DNA of 64,000 bases. Source: Rhodothermia bacterium (lineage in GTDB: Bacteria; Bacteroidota; Rhodothermia; Rhodothermales; JAAAOL01). Every line of letters starts with the position of its first letter. Within the stretch, counting starts at the first letter, position 1. Position numbers and translations under genes: made by a program. Of this stretch, positions 58,067 to 64,000 are shown piece by piece. Location of the stretch: assembly GCA_030428385.1 (NCBI GenBank), contig JAUIDY010000016.1, positions 1-64,000 on the forward strand, written 5' to 3'. A model generated the notes under the pieces. That model was given only the letters and a program-made list of their open reading frames with translations. It was not told where the DNA came from and did no database searches.

Positions 58067-61000
58067 TTACCGTTTCGGATACTGTGTGCGCAGAAGCGTA
58101 AACGGCGAGGGGGATTTGCGTGTGCGTAGCATATGCAAAAGATGGCGATAACCCGCCCCGTACACATCATTGCGGGCAACCTGACGGGCGATGTGTTCTT
58201 TGGCAATGCCTTTTGCTTCGAGGCATTGCAGCCCGGCCCAGAGCGCATGTCCTTCGATGAGCAGCAGCCCATGCTCGGCGTGCATCCGCTGCACGTCAAG
58301 GTGATCAAATTGCCAGATGTGTGTCAGTTCGTGGGCCACCGTTTCGAGCATGAGGTGGTACGGCTGCCCGTTCTCGATCAAAATAGCATAGTGTCCGGGT
58401 CCATCCTGTATGGCCAGTCCGATGGCCCGTTCGTCGAAGTCCGCCGTGGGCAAAAACGTCCCCCCGTGCGCAGCCGCGATTTCCTGTGGATTGGCAAAGC
58501 GGATGTCGATGTCGCGGGTGAGCTTCAGGTCGAAGCGCCCCGTCAGGAAGGCGCGTGCTTCCTTGTATACTTTTTTTAACCCCTTCACGGTATCCACCGC
58601 CTGCCCGGTGCAGGTCTGACACCGCTCGCGCCCGTCCGGGAGGCGTTTGAGCTTTTTGCTGGCGGTGGGTCGCCCACAGAAATCGCAGACGGTGCCGTCG
58701 TCTTGCGTCGGCGGTTTTTCGTGGGCGCTGGAATAATAGCCCCGCCGCTGGGCCGTGATCTGGTACTCGGTCAGGAAAAGCGCATTCAGAATCGACTTTG
58801 TCTTTTCCAGATCGAGGGCCGCAGACACCTCGCTTTTGCCGTAGCGTAAAAAAGTGTCCCGGTCGGCGATTTGCTTCTTCCATCCGGTGCTGGGCTTTTC
58901 TGATGGTTTGAGCAGCCAGGTCAAGTAATCCCCCAGTTGCTCCAATACATAGCTCCACTCGGTAAACATGGCCTGTACCAGCCCAACATCGGCGGTGGAA
59001 TCCTCCACGAAATACAGGTCAATGCTGCGACCGTCATCTTGCCACTCCAGTGCCAGGTACGGAAGGGCATGCCGTAGCGTAGCGAGGGAGGCACTGGTGG
59101 AAGCACGCGGCGAGACGCAGGCATGCAACAGCGTATGGGTTTCGGGAAAGAGGGTAACAAACGCCTCGTTGCACAACACCGCCAGCGTTCGCGCCACGGC
59201 ATGGCGCTCCTCCACCGCCATGCGGTCAGCCAGTTTGAGCTTCAGATGCATCAGCCGTCCCGCCGGATACACACGCACGGGCACGTCGTGATCGCGCACC
59301 TCGGTGAAGGTATACGCGCCTTCGCGCATGCTGAGATCATGCAAAAACGTGTAGTACCCCTTTGTCTTTACCCGAAACCGTCCTTTTCCGAGGCGTCGCT
59401 CAATCGTCAGCCGCCCCTTGCGCACCGTCTCGGGCGGCGACCAGTCGTGCACGTCATCGACGGTGATTTGCAGCGCGGGGCGATACATCAGGTGGCGCTG
59501 GGCCGGGCGGTGGCGCGTACGCACGGTGGCGGTCGCCGGGTCGATGGCGACGACCTCAAAGGGTTTGTCTTCGTAGGTGCCGTGCTCCTGCGTCCGAAAC
59601 GTATGAACCTGCCCCGGCAAGTACGTCTGGTACAGATGGTCGGCCGTGACAAAGCCCTGCACATGCCCGCCGTCGTCTACGATCTGATACCGTCGCAGCC
59701 AACCGAGGTGGTCGTGGTTTTTGATATGGGGATCGAGCCGGAAGAACGTGATTTCTTCGAACGCACCCGTGGCCTCGTTAAACACGGTGTCGCGCTGGGC
59801 CTTGAGGTAGCCCCGTTCGCGCAGGTCGAGGTCGAACATAAACAGAAACAGCCCATGCAGGGCATCCTCCACGACGCGGGCCTCGGGCAGCACGCTGCGC
59901 AGTTGATCCAGCACCTCGGCTTCGGTCATCGGCCCTGCCACGAGCCGCTCCAGCAAGCCATACGCCACGGCATAGCGGCTGGTGGCGGCCAGCCGGGGCG
60001 TGAGGGCCTGTGCAAACAGGGGTGTGGCGAGGAAAAACTCGACGTTGTCCGCAAAATAGTCCCGCAGCAGATAAGGCGGCGAGACGAGGTTTACGAAGGC
60101 GAGCCGCCGCCCGAGCGGGATGTATTCACGCAGCGCCGCGATGAGGTTGTGCTCGCGGTCGTGGACGAGCAGCGGCGCTTGCTCGCGGGGCTTCGCCATC
60201 CACGAAATCTCGCTTGGCCCGAGGCTGTTCTCTTTAAAATGCTGGGCGCGGAGGGTGTCGTCTTTCGCGAGTTCTTCCACGAATTCGTCCCACGGCTGCT
60301 CCTCCTGCCCCACCGCCACAAACTCTCGCACTCCAGCCTGCCATGCCAACAGCGCCAACACCGGCTCGGCCCCGAGGTAATCGGGAGAGCCACTGAGCAA
60401 CCCGCGTTGCGTGGCCGCGTGCGCAAACGGGTGCTCCCCTTCGAGCTGCCACGTCAGCACGAACACGTTATCCGACACAGACCCGGCCAGGTGATGCTCC
60501 CGGAAATTGCCCGTCAGGAAGCCACGCATACCTGATTCCAGCGCTTTCCGCCCGTCGGAGGTAGCGATGAGTTGCAGCGAGGGCGAATGCGCCCGTAGCA
60601 CCTGAATGAGTGCCCGCACCGAGGGCAGGTGGTTCATCACTGTGGCCGATGCGTTCAGGGCCAGCACCACATCCACGGCTTCGAACCAGCGCTCGCGGAC
60701 GGTGTCGGCGTTCAGCAGGGCACCAGCGGATGACACCAGCACATGCGGATCGTCGTGGACGCGGCGGTAGTGATCCAGCGTCTCCACCTGCCATGTCATG
60801 GCTCCATCGAAATAACTCCCCAGTTCTGTCCGCAGCCAGCGGGCCACTTCCTCCTGCCGCGCAGGCGCATCGCGGCGATCCGGCTCCACCAACACCAAGA
60901 TGCGGTGCCCGTCGATGAGGTGGGCATGCAAGGCCGCAAACAGCACCGGCGCGAGGTCGTCATAAATCACGCTGCTGATGAGCACATCATGCCCCCGCTG

Positions 61001-61903
61001 CAGATCGGAAAGCACGTTAAAATGCTCGGGCGTGAGGGTGTGCCCCCGGCTGAGCAGATCGTTCCAGAGGCGCTCCAGTTCGTACGTCTGCGGATCGGCG
61101 TCGGGTGTCTGTCGGTAGCTGATCGGGTGGTGTTCGGGGCGCGGTAGCGCCAGCTTGTCTGTGGCCACCAGCACCCGCTCGGGCCAGATCTTCTGATACC
61201 GCTCCCACAGTTTTTGATAATCGATGGCTTTTTCGGCCGTGACATCGTCGCCGCCGAACCGCTCGGCGGAGTCGGCGGGACGCGCACCATCGAGAAACCA
61301 GCCCAGTTCGAGCAGCACCACCAGCGCGGGCGCGGGAAGCAAGGTGAGCATGACGGGCACCGGAAGCAGCGTTGCATCGAAGATGAGCGCCACAAACAGC
61401 GGGATGGCCGCCAGAAACGCGAGCCGCCGTGCCAAGATGCCAGACAGCACCCACTCTTCGCGGATGAGCACGCCGTGTTCGGGGTCGTGGCGGTGAAACA
61501 GCAGCCGCTTCGAGGGCGCATGTTCTTTCCGAAACCACGCGACAAGCCGTTGCACGCCGTTGTTGATGAGCTTGATGCCTGCGAAGGCCAGCAACAACCC
61601 CAGATTGAGCAGTACGTGGACTCCTTCCGTCACTTCCCACCCTAACGGGTCTGCCCGCAGCAGTTGGGCCACGGCGGTGAGAACGGGCGTCAGCGCGGCT
61701 TCGACCTGTGCCTGGATCGGCGGGTAGTATTTGAAGTAGGCATACAACGCCCCACCGGCTGCTCCCAGCGCCGTCAGCACCTCTCCCTGCTGCCGGTACC
61801 GCATGGGCTTGGGCAGGTTAAGCTTGTGGAGCAGCCATACCACCGCCGCCAGCGCTACCAGCGCTACCAGCGTCAACCGCCAAATGTGTGGTTCGGGAGG
61901 CAT
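58067..61903 (-). CDS. Membrane-anchored pseudo-helicase with zinc ribbon and HExxH peptidase domain
   Basis: 1278 aa, function unknown. TM helices lie at ~10-27, 95-113 and 160-204 (probably two in the last). Residues ~280-466 follow an SF2 helicase lobe strand by strand: GHTLTPEHFNVLSDLQRGHD, ILVLVEPDRRDA, VLVSSAGALLNA, DVVLALNAS, LQLIATSDGR. But Walker A (HDVLISSVIYDD) and DEAD (DVVLALNA) have lost the catalytic residues. Residues ~900-997 resemble a DUF1998/MrfA-type tail (RHALPYLALEW, DLYFVEDSTADVGLVQ). A four-Cys ribbon (C1073, C1076, C1095, C1098) follows, then a zincin, HELTH 1191-1195 with a likely third ligand E1217 (LIEGHALW), as in DA1-like peptidases. The domain order is directly visible; the family assignments are inference. 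It is the last gene of the operon, 36 bp after the SRPBCC gene. Confidence 0.75.
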   Translation of the reverse strand: MPPEPHIWRLTLVALVALAAVVWLLHKLNLPKPMRYRQQGEVLTALGAAGGALYAYFKYYPPIQAQVEAALTPVLTAVAQLLRADPLGWEVTEGVHVLLNLGLLLAFAGIKLINNGVQRLVAWFRKEHAPSKRLLFHRHDPEHGVLIREEWVLSGILARRLAFLAAIPLFVALIFDATLLPVPVMLTLLPAPALVVLLELGWFLDGARPADSAERFGGDDVTAEKAIDYQKLWERYQKIWPERVLVATDKLALPRPEHHPISYRQTPDADPQTYELERLWNDLLSRGHTLTPEHFNVLSDLQRGHDVLISSVIYDDLAPVLFAALHAHLIDGHRILVLVEPDRRDAPARQEEVARWLRTELGSYFDGAMTWQVETLDHYRRVHDDPHVLVSSAGALLNADTVRERWFEAVDVVLALNASATVMNHLPSVRALIQVLRAHSPSLQLIATSDGRKALESGMRGFLTGNFREHHLAGSVSDNVFVLTWQLEGEHPFAHAATQRGLLSGSPDYLGAEPVLALLAWQAGVREFVAVGQEEQPWDEFVEELAKDDTLRAQHFKENSLGPSEISWMAKPREQAPLLVHDREHNLIAALREYIPLGRRLAFVNLVSPPYLLRDYFADNVEFFLATPLFAQALTPRLAATSRYAVAYGLLERLVAGPMTEAEVLDQLRSVLPEARVVEDALHGLFLFMFDLDLRERGYLKAQRDTVFNEATGAFEEITFFRLDPHIKNHDHLGWLRRYQIVDDGGHVQGFVTADHLYQTYLPGQVHTFRTQEHGTYEDKPFEVVAIDPATATVRTRHRPAQRHLMYRPALQITVDDVHDWSPPETVRKGRLTIERRLGKGRFRVKTKGYYTFLHDLSMREGAYTFTEVRDHDVPVRVYPAGRLMHLKLKLADRMAVEERHAVARTLAVLCNEAFVTLFPETHTLLHACVSPRASTSASLATLRHALPYLALEWQDDGRSIDLYFVEDSTADVGLVQAMFTEWSYVLEQLGDYLTWLLKPSEKPSTGWKKQIADRDTFLRYGKSEVSAALDLEKTKSILNALFLTEYQITAQRRGYYSSAHEKPPTQDDGTVCDFCGRPTASKKLKRLPDGRERCQTCTGQAVDTVKGLKKVYKEARAFLTGRFDLKLTRDIDIRFANPQEIAAAHGGTFLPTADFDERAIGLAIQDGPGHYAILIENGQPYHLMLETVAHELTHIWQFDHLDVQRMHAEHGLLLIEGHALWAGLQCLEAKGIAKEHIARQVARNDVYGAGYRHLLHMLRTRKSPSPFTLLRTQYPKR

Positions 61904-61939
61904 GGATACAAAACCGCCGGATTGCCCCTGCGCGGTCGG

Positions 61940-62500
61940 TTATTGATAGTCAGGGATGAGGTCTTCTGCCTTTTCAGCGGGTTGACGAAGCCGAGGCACG
62001 ACTTGCTTCCGTGCTTTTCCGCCGGTTAGTACCCACCGCAACCCCCTTACCCACGGCGACCAAGGAACCACCGTCGGGGTGTTGCCGAGTGCCGCCTCGG
62101 CCTTGGCGAGGGCGTCTTCCAACAAGGCGTCGTGGAGGGGACGAAAGATGAGCGGCCAGGACAGCAGCGCCAGTCCACGCGCACGCATCTTCAGTGTGTG
62201 ACGCAGCAGCGTAGACTGCTCGTCCAACGAAAGGACCTCGAACTGGTGGTAGCCATCAAATCCGGACGGGCCTGTAAATCGAAACGTCGCCTGCCGCCCG
62301 GGGGCGTAGGCTTCCACGAAATAGCGAATCGGCCCGTGCCCGCCCCGTGCGCCTACGGCCAGCGGACGATCAAATATCATCCGGGGCCATCGCTCAAACG
62401 GAAAAAGCAAATCCTTGCGAGAGGCTAACGAATCAAGCAGTTTCCCCACCTGCTCCGCATCGGCTGTCACTTCGCGTTTATGTATGTTCAGAACGTTCAT
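61940..62500 (-). CDS. SRPBCC (START-like) family protein
   Basis: 186 aa. The helix-grip pattern is visible in GHGPIRYFVEAYAPGRQATF, FTGPSGFDGYHQFEVL and LLRHTLKMRARGLALLSWPL, and FRPLHDALLEDALAKAEAAL is the long C-terminal helix. These proteins bind hydrophobic ligands or act as cyclases. A basic, Trp-containing tail (SPWVRGLRWVLTGGKARKQV) extends beyond the fold. It lies 30 bp after the two-TM gene and 36 bp before the pseudo-helicase gene, so the three are probably co-transcribed. Confidence 0.8.
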   Translation of the reverse strand: MNVLNIHKREVTADAEQVGKLLDSLASRKDLLFPFERWPRMIFDRPLAVGARGGHGPIRYFVEAYAPGRQATFRFTGPSGFDGYHQFEVLSLDEQSTLLRHTLKMRARGLALLSWPLIFRPLHDALLEDALAKAEAALGNTPTVVPWSPWVRGLRWVLTGGKARKQVVPRLRQPAEKAEDLIPDYQ

Positions 62501-62530
62501 GCATTCTCATTAACTAAAGGACGAACCTCC

Positions 62531-64000
62531 TTAGCGCTTCATGTTGCCCAGCAACACCGCATCTTCGCGCAGGACGAGCCGCTGTAGACCAGGCAACGCG
62601 GAGCCACCTGCGGCGATGTCAGCACTGCCAACCTGAACGGTGTAGGCAGGGATCTCACGCCCAGCGTAACTGATAGGGGCATAAGCAGCATTGGCTTCCG
62701 GGGGGGTGCCGGGTATAATGGCAGGGGCACTGGGTGGATCTGTTGCCGCTTCTTCGTCCACCGCTAAACCACTGATCTTGCGCTGGTGCAGCCGTATCTG
62801 GTCGGCGTGGTGTTTTTCATAAAGGACGCGCTCTGCCGTGGCCCGTTGCGCGTCCTGCGCCACGGCATCGTTGAGCCGCGCGACACGGGTGCGGCACAGT
62901 TGGCCCACATACGCGCGCTGCTGCTCGAAGACCCGCTCCTGGTTCAACGCCACATTGGCCGCCACGGTATGCGCCGCCGTGAGGGCCTTGCGCAACCGCC
63001 GCGCCACGGCATACAAGGCCGCGATGGCGGCCACCAACACAAGCACCATCAACCCTGCGATCATGACCCGATAGTCCCAATCGGTGGGTGCCCCTTTCCA
63101 CAGTTGCAAGGCAGGAGGAATAAAAAAGATCAAGGTGCCCAAGATGCCGTTCACGATGAATCGCTGCGGACGGTGCCGGATGTCGAGCACGTCCCGCACC
63201 CGGCGCATAACGCCCGCCATCGCTTCGGTGAGTGGAGGCGACGCACTCTTGGGAAAAGGTTGGGCGATAAGAGAGCGGCGAGCCGATTCGAAGGAGGCGT
63301 GCCGCGCCGTGGCGACGGTGGCGAGATTGGCATATTCCTCCGCCTCTGAGGGCGGCGGTTTGTGGACATCAGCGAGGCAGTCCTGCACGCGTGCACGGCC
63401 CTCGCGTTGTGCGTCGTCCAGCTTCTCCTGTGCCCCCGCCAGCCACTGGCTCCATCGCCCCCGGTCATCATGTCGTTGAAACCAGCCGTAGCGGGGTGTG
63501 GACAGGTCGGGGCGGTGGTTGCCGCCATAACAGGCACACTGGTCATCCCGATACGTCGTTAAATGCACCGGCCCATGGCCCGACACACCCGCCTGCAACC
63601 GCTGGGCTTCTTTGGTCAACTGTGCCTGATACGGCCCTGCGACCGCCTGCAACGCGCCCTCGTCGATACGAACTTCCGCGACGGTGTGAATCGGCATCAG
63701 GGGATGGCGCTCGCGTTTGTCGCGGAAGTCAGTGCCCAGCGCCTCGTGGGAGGCCAGCACGCCGAGTGTATAGGCCAGTTCGAGCCAGGCCCGTTGCCCC
63801 ACCGCCCGGCGGCGCTCGCGTAGCGGAAACCGGAGGAGAAACACATCGCCCGAAAAGGCCCGCAGGCTGAAGGTGCGCGACAACGAATCGGCGAGGACGG
63901 CCTGCGGTGTGGCGCGGGCAATATCGCGCTTGCGCGTCGCGGCGAGACGCCTGGAAAATCGCTGTAAGGCTTCGCGGTAGCGCTCGATGCGAACCAGCGC
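62531..64000 (-). CDS. Two-TM protein of unknown function, 5'-truncated
   Basis: The frame is open to the window edge; 489 residues are visible and the N-terminus is missing. No family is recognised. The first ~240 residues are soluble, with an unusual CACYGGNH motif that could bind metal. Two TM helices follow near visible residues 285-305 (FIVNGILGTLIFFIPPALQL) and 313-337 (VMIAGLMVLVLVAAIAALYA), then a helical, Arg/Gln-rich stretch of ~70 residues and a Pro/Ala-rich tail. It is the upstream gene of the SRPBCC and pseudo-helicase unit. The membrane link suggests it forms a complex with the pseudo-helicase at the inner membrane. Confidence 0.7.
   Translation of the reverse strand, partial: ALVRIERYREALQRFSRRLAATRKRDIARATPQAVLADSLSRTFSLRAFSGDVFLLRFPLRERRRAVGQRAWLELAYTLGVLASHEALGTDFRDKRERHPLMPIHTVAEVRIDEGALQAVAGPYQAQLTKEAQRLQAGVSGHGPVHLTTYRDDQCACYGGNHRPDLSTPRYGWFQRHDDRGRWSQWLAGAQEKLDDAQREGRARVQDCLADVHKPPPSEAEEYANLATVATARHASFESARRSLIAQPFPKSASPPLTEAMAGVMRRVRDVLDIRHRPQRFIVNGILGTLIFFIPPALQLWKGAPTDWDYRVMIAGLMVLVLVAAIAALYAVARRLRKALTAAHTVAANVALNQERVFEQQRAYVGQLCRTRVARLNDAVAQDAQRATAERVLYEKHHADQIRLHQRKISGLAVDEEAATDPPSAPAIIPGTPPEANAAYAPISYAGREIPAYTVQVGSADIAAGGSALPGLQRLVLREDAVLLGNMKR

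Follow-up and report, generated by a model that had tools for sequence, protein, structure and literature searches.

Operons that combine a tubulin relative, FtsZl1 (the Tubulin_2 family), with a vWA protein were reported in 2010 as predicted membrane-remodelling systems of patchy distribution, and the main text of that study also noted associated gene families that went unrecognised (Makarova and Koonin 2010, PMC2875224). YprA/MrfA helicases, described in 2025, share a RecA1–RecA2–OB–connector–DUF1998 layout, define the DISARM, Druantia, Dpd and ARMADA systems, and are defensive in most of their branches (PMC12458937). GTPase-centric conflict systems with tubulin and vWA proteins have also been described, and DO-GTPase2 is a hallmark of those that contain tubulin (Kaur et al. 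2020, PMC7159879). Here we analysed a 64,000-nucleotide stretch of a Rhodothermia bacterium genome (contig JAUIDY010000016.1, positions 1–64,000; hereafter the window). Computation shows that its end, positions 58067–64000, is the 3′ part of a Tubulin_2/FtsZl1–vWA-type operon. The last gene of this operon (58067..61903, minus strand) encodes a 1278-amino-acid (aa) membrane-anchored, MrfA/YprA-like pseudo-helicase with a C-terminal zinc ribbon and a DA1-like peptidase, as judged from homologues, an AlphaFold2 model and Foldseek.

Three open reading frames (ORFs), all on the minus strand, lie at 58067–61903 (1278 aa), 61940–62500 (186 aa) and from 62531 to beyond 64000, with intergenic gaps of only 36 and 30 bp; this bears out the tight spacing noted in an original prediction made from the letters of the window. 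The contig extends to 67848, and the operon continues outside the window. Its gene order is a Tubulin_2/FtsZl1 gene (contig 64561–67848, minus strand, at least 1095 aa), a gene for a 693-aa protein with two transmembrane (TM) segments (62531..64000 in the window, 62531–64612 on the contig, minus strand; hereafter the 2-TM gene), the 186-aa SRPBCC-like gene and the 1278-aa gene. The upstream ORF carries the Tubulin_2 domain PF13809 (E = 2.2e-53 over profile positions 72–353, and 7.6e-53 in a second search); the contig end cuts the 5′ end of the gene, and the first 71 profile positions fall off the contig. The GTP-binding loop, G-[GA]-T-G-[ST]-G, is intact in the alignment (SLAGGTGSGIF), and the protein length fits a coiled-coil and helical C-terminal extension, length alone having been compared. 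The tubulin and 2-TM genes have overlapping ends, with a GTG at 64564 as the likelier start of the 2-TM gene. The original prediction had built the operon around the 1278-aa protein. That picture changes because the operon is best understood through the Tubulin_2 gene beyond the window edge: the shared core consists of a vWA protein, a Tubulin_2 protein, a 2-TM coiled-coil protein and a membrane-anchored MrfA/YprA-like protein, and the peptidase is optional.

The combination of vWA, tubulin, 2-TM and MrfA-like genes is found repeatedly, in several phyla. Homologues of the large protein there match over its full length (E down to 2.8e-195), so it is not a chance ORF; they were reached through a tubulin-led scan, and a scan of genome contigs with the single protein gave no relative. 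A tblastn search of plasmids with the large and 2-TM proteins gave no match either. We surveyed 86 loci that contain a tubulin ORF; at least 6 kb of sequence lies downstream in 59 of them. The large protein was encoded in 36 of these 59, and in 34 of the 36 a long ORF, nearly always with about two TM segments, stood between it and the tubulin gene, the intervening ORF picked by the script being a second tubulin in a few clostridial loci. Four clostridial loci (L065, L066, L084 and L085) have two tubulin-like genes in tandem ahead of the 2-TM gene, a pairing that resembles the paired Firmicutes tubulins of PMC7159879. A vWA gene was present in 46 of the 86 tubulin loci and adjoined the tubulin gene in most related ones. 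Of the three window genes, the 2-TM and large genes belong to the recurring set, and the SRPBCC-like gene is local.

The association is also seen where the genes are scattered. Nine Bacteroidota genomes were chosen for a tubulin without an adjacent large protein, and eight of them encode the large protein elsewhere. Across a panel of 199 genomes from one Bacteroidota order, with near-full-length large proteins counted, Tubulin_2 occurred in 11/11 genomes with the large protein versus 8/188 others, often unlinked (Fisher p = 2e-13); without the seven genomes chosen through their tubulin, the counts were 5/5 versus 7/187 (p = 3.8e-7). Within the window's own class, the combination of large protein and Tubulin_2 was convincing in 1 of 245 genomes, namely this one. 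The window tubulin groups with that of Desulfobacca beside Bacillaceae, and not with Bacteroidota (SH-like approximate likelihood ratio test support of 98, quick method). Given this grouping and the rarity of the set in its own class, the gene set likely moved between phyla.

This genome encodes its vWA protein on another contig, unlinked to the operon (C209:29595–31661, equivalent to L094:14574–16691; E = 6.5e-121), with no tubulin in the neighbourhood. This protein starts with a signal-peptide-like segment and contains a DDSGS motif and a single TM helix; the Pfam vWA model did not match it. The 2-TM protein comprises an alpha/beta N-domain, TM segments at residues 486–504 and 516–534 and a long coiled coil. 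Its homologue in L025 (E = 3.8e-38) occupies the same locus position and was modelled with a mean predicted local distance difference test (pLDDT) of 73; no solved fold matched the 2-TM protein significantly (best E = 0.05). At one Ornithinibacillus locus (L023:13277–19277) two ORFs stand in place of the 2-TM gene and two more in place of the large gene, a sign of decay or of sequencing errors in this copy.

The large protein was next compared by structure. An AlphaFold2 model of residues 215–1278, built on a 24-row alignment, reached a pLDDT of 82.9 and a predicted template modelling score of 0.77. The top Foldseek match was the DUF1998 helicase MrfA (6znp_A, E = 3.5e-23, probability 1.00); four MrfA chains (E = 3.5e-23 to 1.1e-13) ranked above Hel308 and DEAD-box proteins. 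The alignment to MrfA spans 863 columns, and the beta-rich and helical segments of the model come in an order that may correspond to an OB–connector–DUF1998 canopy. A sequence-only profile search of the same region returned DDX47 (3ber, E = 0.0017) and YprA/MrfA (6znp, E = 0.017). The model and Foldseek thus place a RecA1–RecA2 helicase fold in the large protein; the modelled order, in which a pair of alpha/beta lobes is followed by helices, an extended beta-rich part and a helical domain, appears to fit the RecA1–RecA2–OB–connector–DUF1998 layout.

Domain borders are approximate, with lobe limits taken from the secondary structure of the model. The protein begins with a membrane region, recognised by hydropathy and found family-wide (residues 1–198; 61310..61903, minus strand, as for all features of this protein). 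It likely holds about four TM segments, since a fifth hydrophobic stretch (residues 307–325) falls within the RecA1-like lobe. That lobe covers about residues 271–486 (60446..61093; model, profile matches and motif table) and is followed by the RecA2-like lobe at about 512–634 (60002..60370; model, Foldseek and alignment), which bears a conserved SPPYLLRDY at 608–616. The beta-rich region at about 700–891 (59231..59806), delimited by the model strands and the MrfA alignment, probably corresponds in position to MrfA's OB and connector parts. The DUF1998-equivalent helical region follows at about 897–1060 (58724..59215; model, Foldseek and alignment), where VEDSTADVG (966–974) aligns with FVDRHPGDAG of an MZB-positive homologue, L074.

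The helicase appears to be dead. The motif I columns of the window protein read SSVIYDDLAP (residues 309–316 being ISSVIYDD), with no Walker A, and the motif II columns read DVVLALNASAT (411–417 being DVVLALN), with motif II gone. Both motifs are missing in every close homologue. A full Walker A is kept only in three distant homologues of Myxococcota type or from one proteobacterial metagenome-assembled genome (APEGAGKS in L077, APEGSGKT in L081 and APAGAGKS in L088), and L061, L069 and L074 are intermediate in motif state. Distant homologues, which occupy the same gene place, match Pfam DEAD (L061, L069, L074 and L077) and, in L074, MZB/DUF1998 (E = 9e-8). Because they keep these domains, and three of them Walker A, we infer that the dead state was derived from an MrfA-like helicase. 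The tubulin tree sets the active-helicase forms in a separate group, its root being a midpoint only. The DUF1998-equivalent region of the window protein contains no cysteine cluster, the zinc-binding cysteines having been lost. An inactive STAND NTPase (iSTAND; PMC7159879, PMC12839542) was considered for the dead core and set aside, given the MrfA structural match and the DEAD and MZB domains of the distant homologues.

The C-terminus carries a separate module. A zinc ribbon, CDFC...CQTC (CDFC at residue 1073, CQTC at 1095; residues 1073–1098, 58610..58687), is found in peptidase-bearing members and absent from alphaproteobacterial and several Bacteroidota members; it is part of the optional peptidase module and not of DUF1998. 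A DA1-like, gluzincin-type peptidase domain follows at about 1106–1274 (58082..58588; model and hhalign), with HELTH at 1191–1195 (58319–58333) and Glu1217 as the likely third ligand. Two helices carry these residues, and the domain is modelled well, the block scoring mostly 84–96 in pLDDT. Compared with bacterial LIM/DA1-like proteins, ribbon and peptidase together gave an hhalign probability of 99.6%, and the window protein itself matched such proteins at E = 1.4e-4 to 1.9e-4. It gave no match to PF12315 up to E = 1, a model that the related LIM/DA1 proteins do match; the related Pfam family BSP scored above its cut-off in the homologue of L055 (E = 2.8e-7). The original prediction of TM helices, a superfamily 2 (SF2)-like core stripped of catalytic residues, an HExxH zincin and, overall, a membrane-bound lobe of an inactive helicase joined to a peptidase that looks intact is therefore borne out: the RecA-like fold it relied on is seen in the model, and the C-terminal module agrees with DA1-like peptidases. 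The DUF1998-like region and the four-cysteine ribbon that it named both exist, with the correction that the ribbon belongs with the peptidase.

The metal ligands are conserved wherever the peptidase domain is retained. The module as a whole is optional: it is absent in alphaproteobacteria and several Bacteroidota and degenerate in Rubrivivax (RQLAFLW). The zincin is also degenerate in six clostridial members with an extra C-terminal stretch (L051, L052, L053, L057, L059 and L083), whose large proteins reach about 1735–1944 aa (L052:16203–21416). In L052 this stretch is a transglutaminase-like domain (E = 1.7e-8), common to the other five, a pattern that looks like the exchange of one protease module for another. 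Such a variable protein end may be likened to the exchangeable effectors of conflict systems (PMC7159879). Elsewhere, the only region of the family profile matched by a 537-aa ORF (G544:C8:499296–499931) is the C-terminal ribbon–peptidase one (E = 2e-50); the module is thus also found without the helicase.

How this locus relates to the described systems can now be stated. It shares with the FtsZl1/vWA operons a Tubulin_2 protein of about 1100 aa, a vWA partner, membrane proteins and a patchy spread; the main text of PMC2875224, its supplementary lists lying outside the search, mentions no helicase or peptidase component. Like MrfA/YprA (PDB 6znp), the large protein has two RecA-like lobes, and its beta-rich and DUF1998-equivalent regions may form a similar canopy. 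It differs in its membrane anchor, its tubulin partner, the loss of Walker A, motif II and the DUF1998 zinc cysteines, and a C-terminal peptidase where known members have a nuclease; the YprA survey makes no mention of tubulin, transmembrane or peptidase (PMC12458937). The module resembles DA1-like (PF12315) peptidases with LIM-type ribbons in its CxxC...CxxC, the ensuing HExxHxWQ...EG and a Y-G-x-G-[FY]-R tail, and departs from them in being fused to a membrane pseudo-helicase. With the conflict systems of PMC7159879, the set shares tubulin, extracellular vWA, TM partners and variable effectors including peptidases; the passages searched there describe no MrfA-like partner of tubulin. Membership of the DO-GTPase systems is unsupported: DO-GTPase2 (PF19993) is absent from this genome under a model that matched its control in C. 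glutamicum, the GAP1 and DO-GTPase1 models being outside the search. The original statement that no characterised system has this set stands for the joint set, which we did not find reported, and yields where the operon type is concerned, partly described as it is in PMC2875224 and PMC7159879. No work joining FtsZl1/vWA operons with MrfA/YprA helicases was found, supplements and subscription papers lying outside the search; the link between these tubulin relatives and a helicase family mainly of phage defence is new to the literature searched.

Neighbouring genes give hints of defence in some lineages. In Sutcliffiella, Evansella and Alteribacter, all Bacillaceae, a CARF-HEPN RNase of Csx1/Csm6 type lies directly downstream on the same strand as the operon (L018:19437–20894, L019:12121–13599 and L021:19380–20876; PADLOC E to 1e-134, NCBIfam TIGR02710). 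Type III CRISPR was rejected as its source, no Cas10 being detected in the Sutcliffiella genome (G479); other Bacillaceae gave Cas10-model matches of about 29 bits, which probably represent GGDEF proteins, since E. coli also matches that model. A shorter Tubulin_2 subtype of about 910 aa occurs on Allomeiothermus, Meiothermus and Thermus plasmids (L009, L011 and L012), in vWA–tubulin–hypothetical sets beside brxL, and methyltransferase, helicase or RecQ genes are present at these loci. This BREX link was set aside as evidence for the present operon, having been seen only with the shorter subtype.

On balance, we favour the view that the locus is a Tubulin_2/vWA-type operon encoding an envelope sensor complex with regulated proteolysis, a reading supported by the upstream Tubulin_2 gene, the MrfA fold, the co-occurrence and the patchy spread. 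The chain of events that we propose is, taken in full, tentative and on the whole doubtful. The four core proteins would come together in an inner-membrane complex, in which the vWA domain, placed after the signal-peptide-like N-terminus and before the single TM helix, would lie outside the cytoplasm and report an envelope disturbance or surface ligand. The pseudo-helicase would no longer move on nucleic acid and might serve as a scaffold or as a nucleic-acid sensor whose MrfA-like canopy would hold DNA. The peptidase could then be exposed by clustering or by ligand binding and would cut one or more target proteins; in members that lack it or have a degenerate form, its job would fall to a different module or to an effector encoded separately. 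As to purpose, an immune role is plausible and the one we prefer, only slightly ahead of envelope maintenance, because the CARF-HEPN RNase adjoins the operon in three Bacillaceae and the helicase family is mainly defensive. Several observations weigh against a sensor with regulated proteolysis. The peptidase is often absent and therefore cannot be the general output, and in some Bacillaceae (Ectobacillus and Bacillus sp. 165; L026, L027, L029 and L038) vWA and tubulin are kept with no detectable large protein, so that some members of the set can do without the others, and the pair may function by itself in that clade. Neighbours in the clostridial loci are housekeeping genes, the genes flanking the operon within the window look like sugar metabolism, and the three operon proteins in the window gave nothing significant in Pfam, NCBIfam or the anti-phage systems of PADLOC. 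Nucleic-acid binding, GTP-driven assembly, protease activity and membrane topology, moreover, are all predicted.

The immune idea can be sharpened by analogy. Zorya combines an envelope complex with an SF2 helicase component, a likeness that is analogy only, and no motor-stator proteins were seen here. A comparable anti-phage or anti-plasmid system, in which the envelope sensor detects injection and the helicase-derived subunit handles incoming DNA, actively in the myxococcal forms and here as a non-hydrolysing sensor that triggers the protease, has a chance that we put a little short of even. The intact Walker A of the distant homologues and the CARF-HEPN RNase at three Bacillaceae loci agree with it, as do the MrfA-type helicases that define DISARM, Druantia, Dpd and ARMADA, although MrfA itself is a DNA-repair helicase. 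BREX-type genes adjoin the shorter Tubulin_2 subtype on Thermus and Meiothermus plasmids, but that form is another subtype and comes without the large protein, and the absence of the operon proteins from PADLOC speaks against such a system. A rather improbable alternative is a machine for envelope or membrane remodelling, as PMC2875224 proposed for FtsZl1 operons together with vesicle biogenesis, in which the tubulin shapes membranes or vesicles, the pseudo-helicase is an anchor and the peptidase serves quality control or processing. TM segments in three of the four core proteins, the signal-peptide-like vWA N-terminus, the clostridial housekeeping neighbourhoods and the persistence of the set in Bacteroidota genomes despite scattered genes would suit it; a very patchy distribution, apparent inter-phylum transfer and a gained and lost peptidase would be unusual for a housekeeping machine, and a nucleic-acid helicase ancestor would have no obvious role there. 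That the operon is a decaying, non-functional remnant whose helicase died through degeneration is very improbable. The split Ornithinibacillus ORFs, the motif loss in all close homologues and the loss of the peptidase in several lineages might be read in this way, but full-length frames and the motifs SPPYLLRDY, EDSxxDLG, HELTH and the CxxC pairs are kept across phyla, and the large protein and Tubulin_2 co-occur significantly. Returning to the sensor with regulated proteolysis, the conflict or envelope-stress function named in the original prediction is one that we, too, only infer, with CARF-HEPN in Bacillaceae set against the clostridial housekeeping neighbours.

Since they were first reported in 2010, FtsZl1 operons have had no function assigned to them; one of their recurrent partners is now traced to the MrfA/YprA family. 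This origin supplies hypotheses, namely that the protein binds nucleic acid but hydrolyses no ATP and that proteolysis is controlled at the membrane, and a helicase family so far described with nucleases gains a membrane-anchored, dead, peptidase-armed branch. A distinct class of tubulin-based envelope immune systems, in which the pseudo-helicase senses incoming nucleic acid, GTP-driven tubulin assembly sets a threshold, and the effectors are exchangeable proteases (the DA1-like zinc peptidase or the transglutaminase-like domain) or a neighbouring CARF-HEPN RNase, is conceivable and, in our estimate, unlikely. The complete set is present in cultivable Bacillaceae, which makes it accessible to deletion experiments.

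The SRPBCC-like gene (61940..62500, minus strand) stands apart from the rest of the operon. Its 186-aa product matched no Pfam, NCBIfam or PADLOC model and no solved structure, so that the SRPBCC name given in the original prediction is putative, and no homologue was found in the related loci. Within the phylum, three further genomes hold homologues at 40–42% identity, each a single gene, on which grounds it was rejected as a system component; it is a local insertion outside the conserved set.

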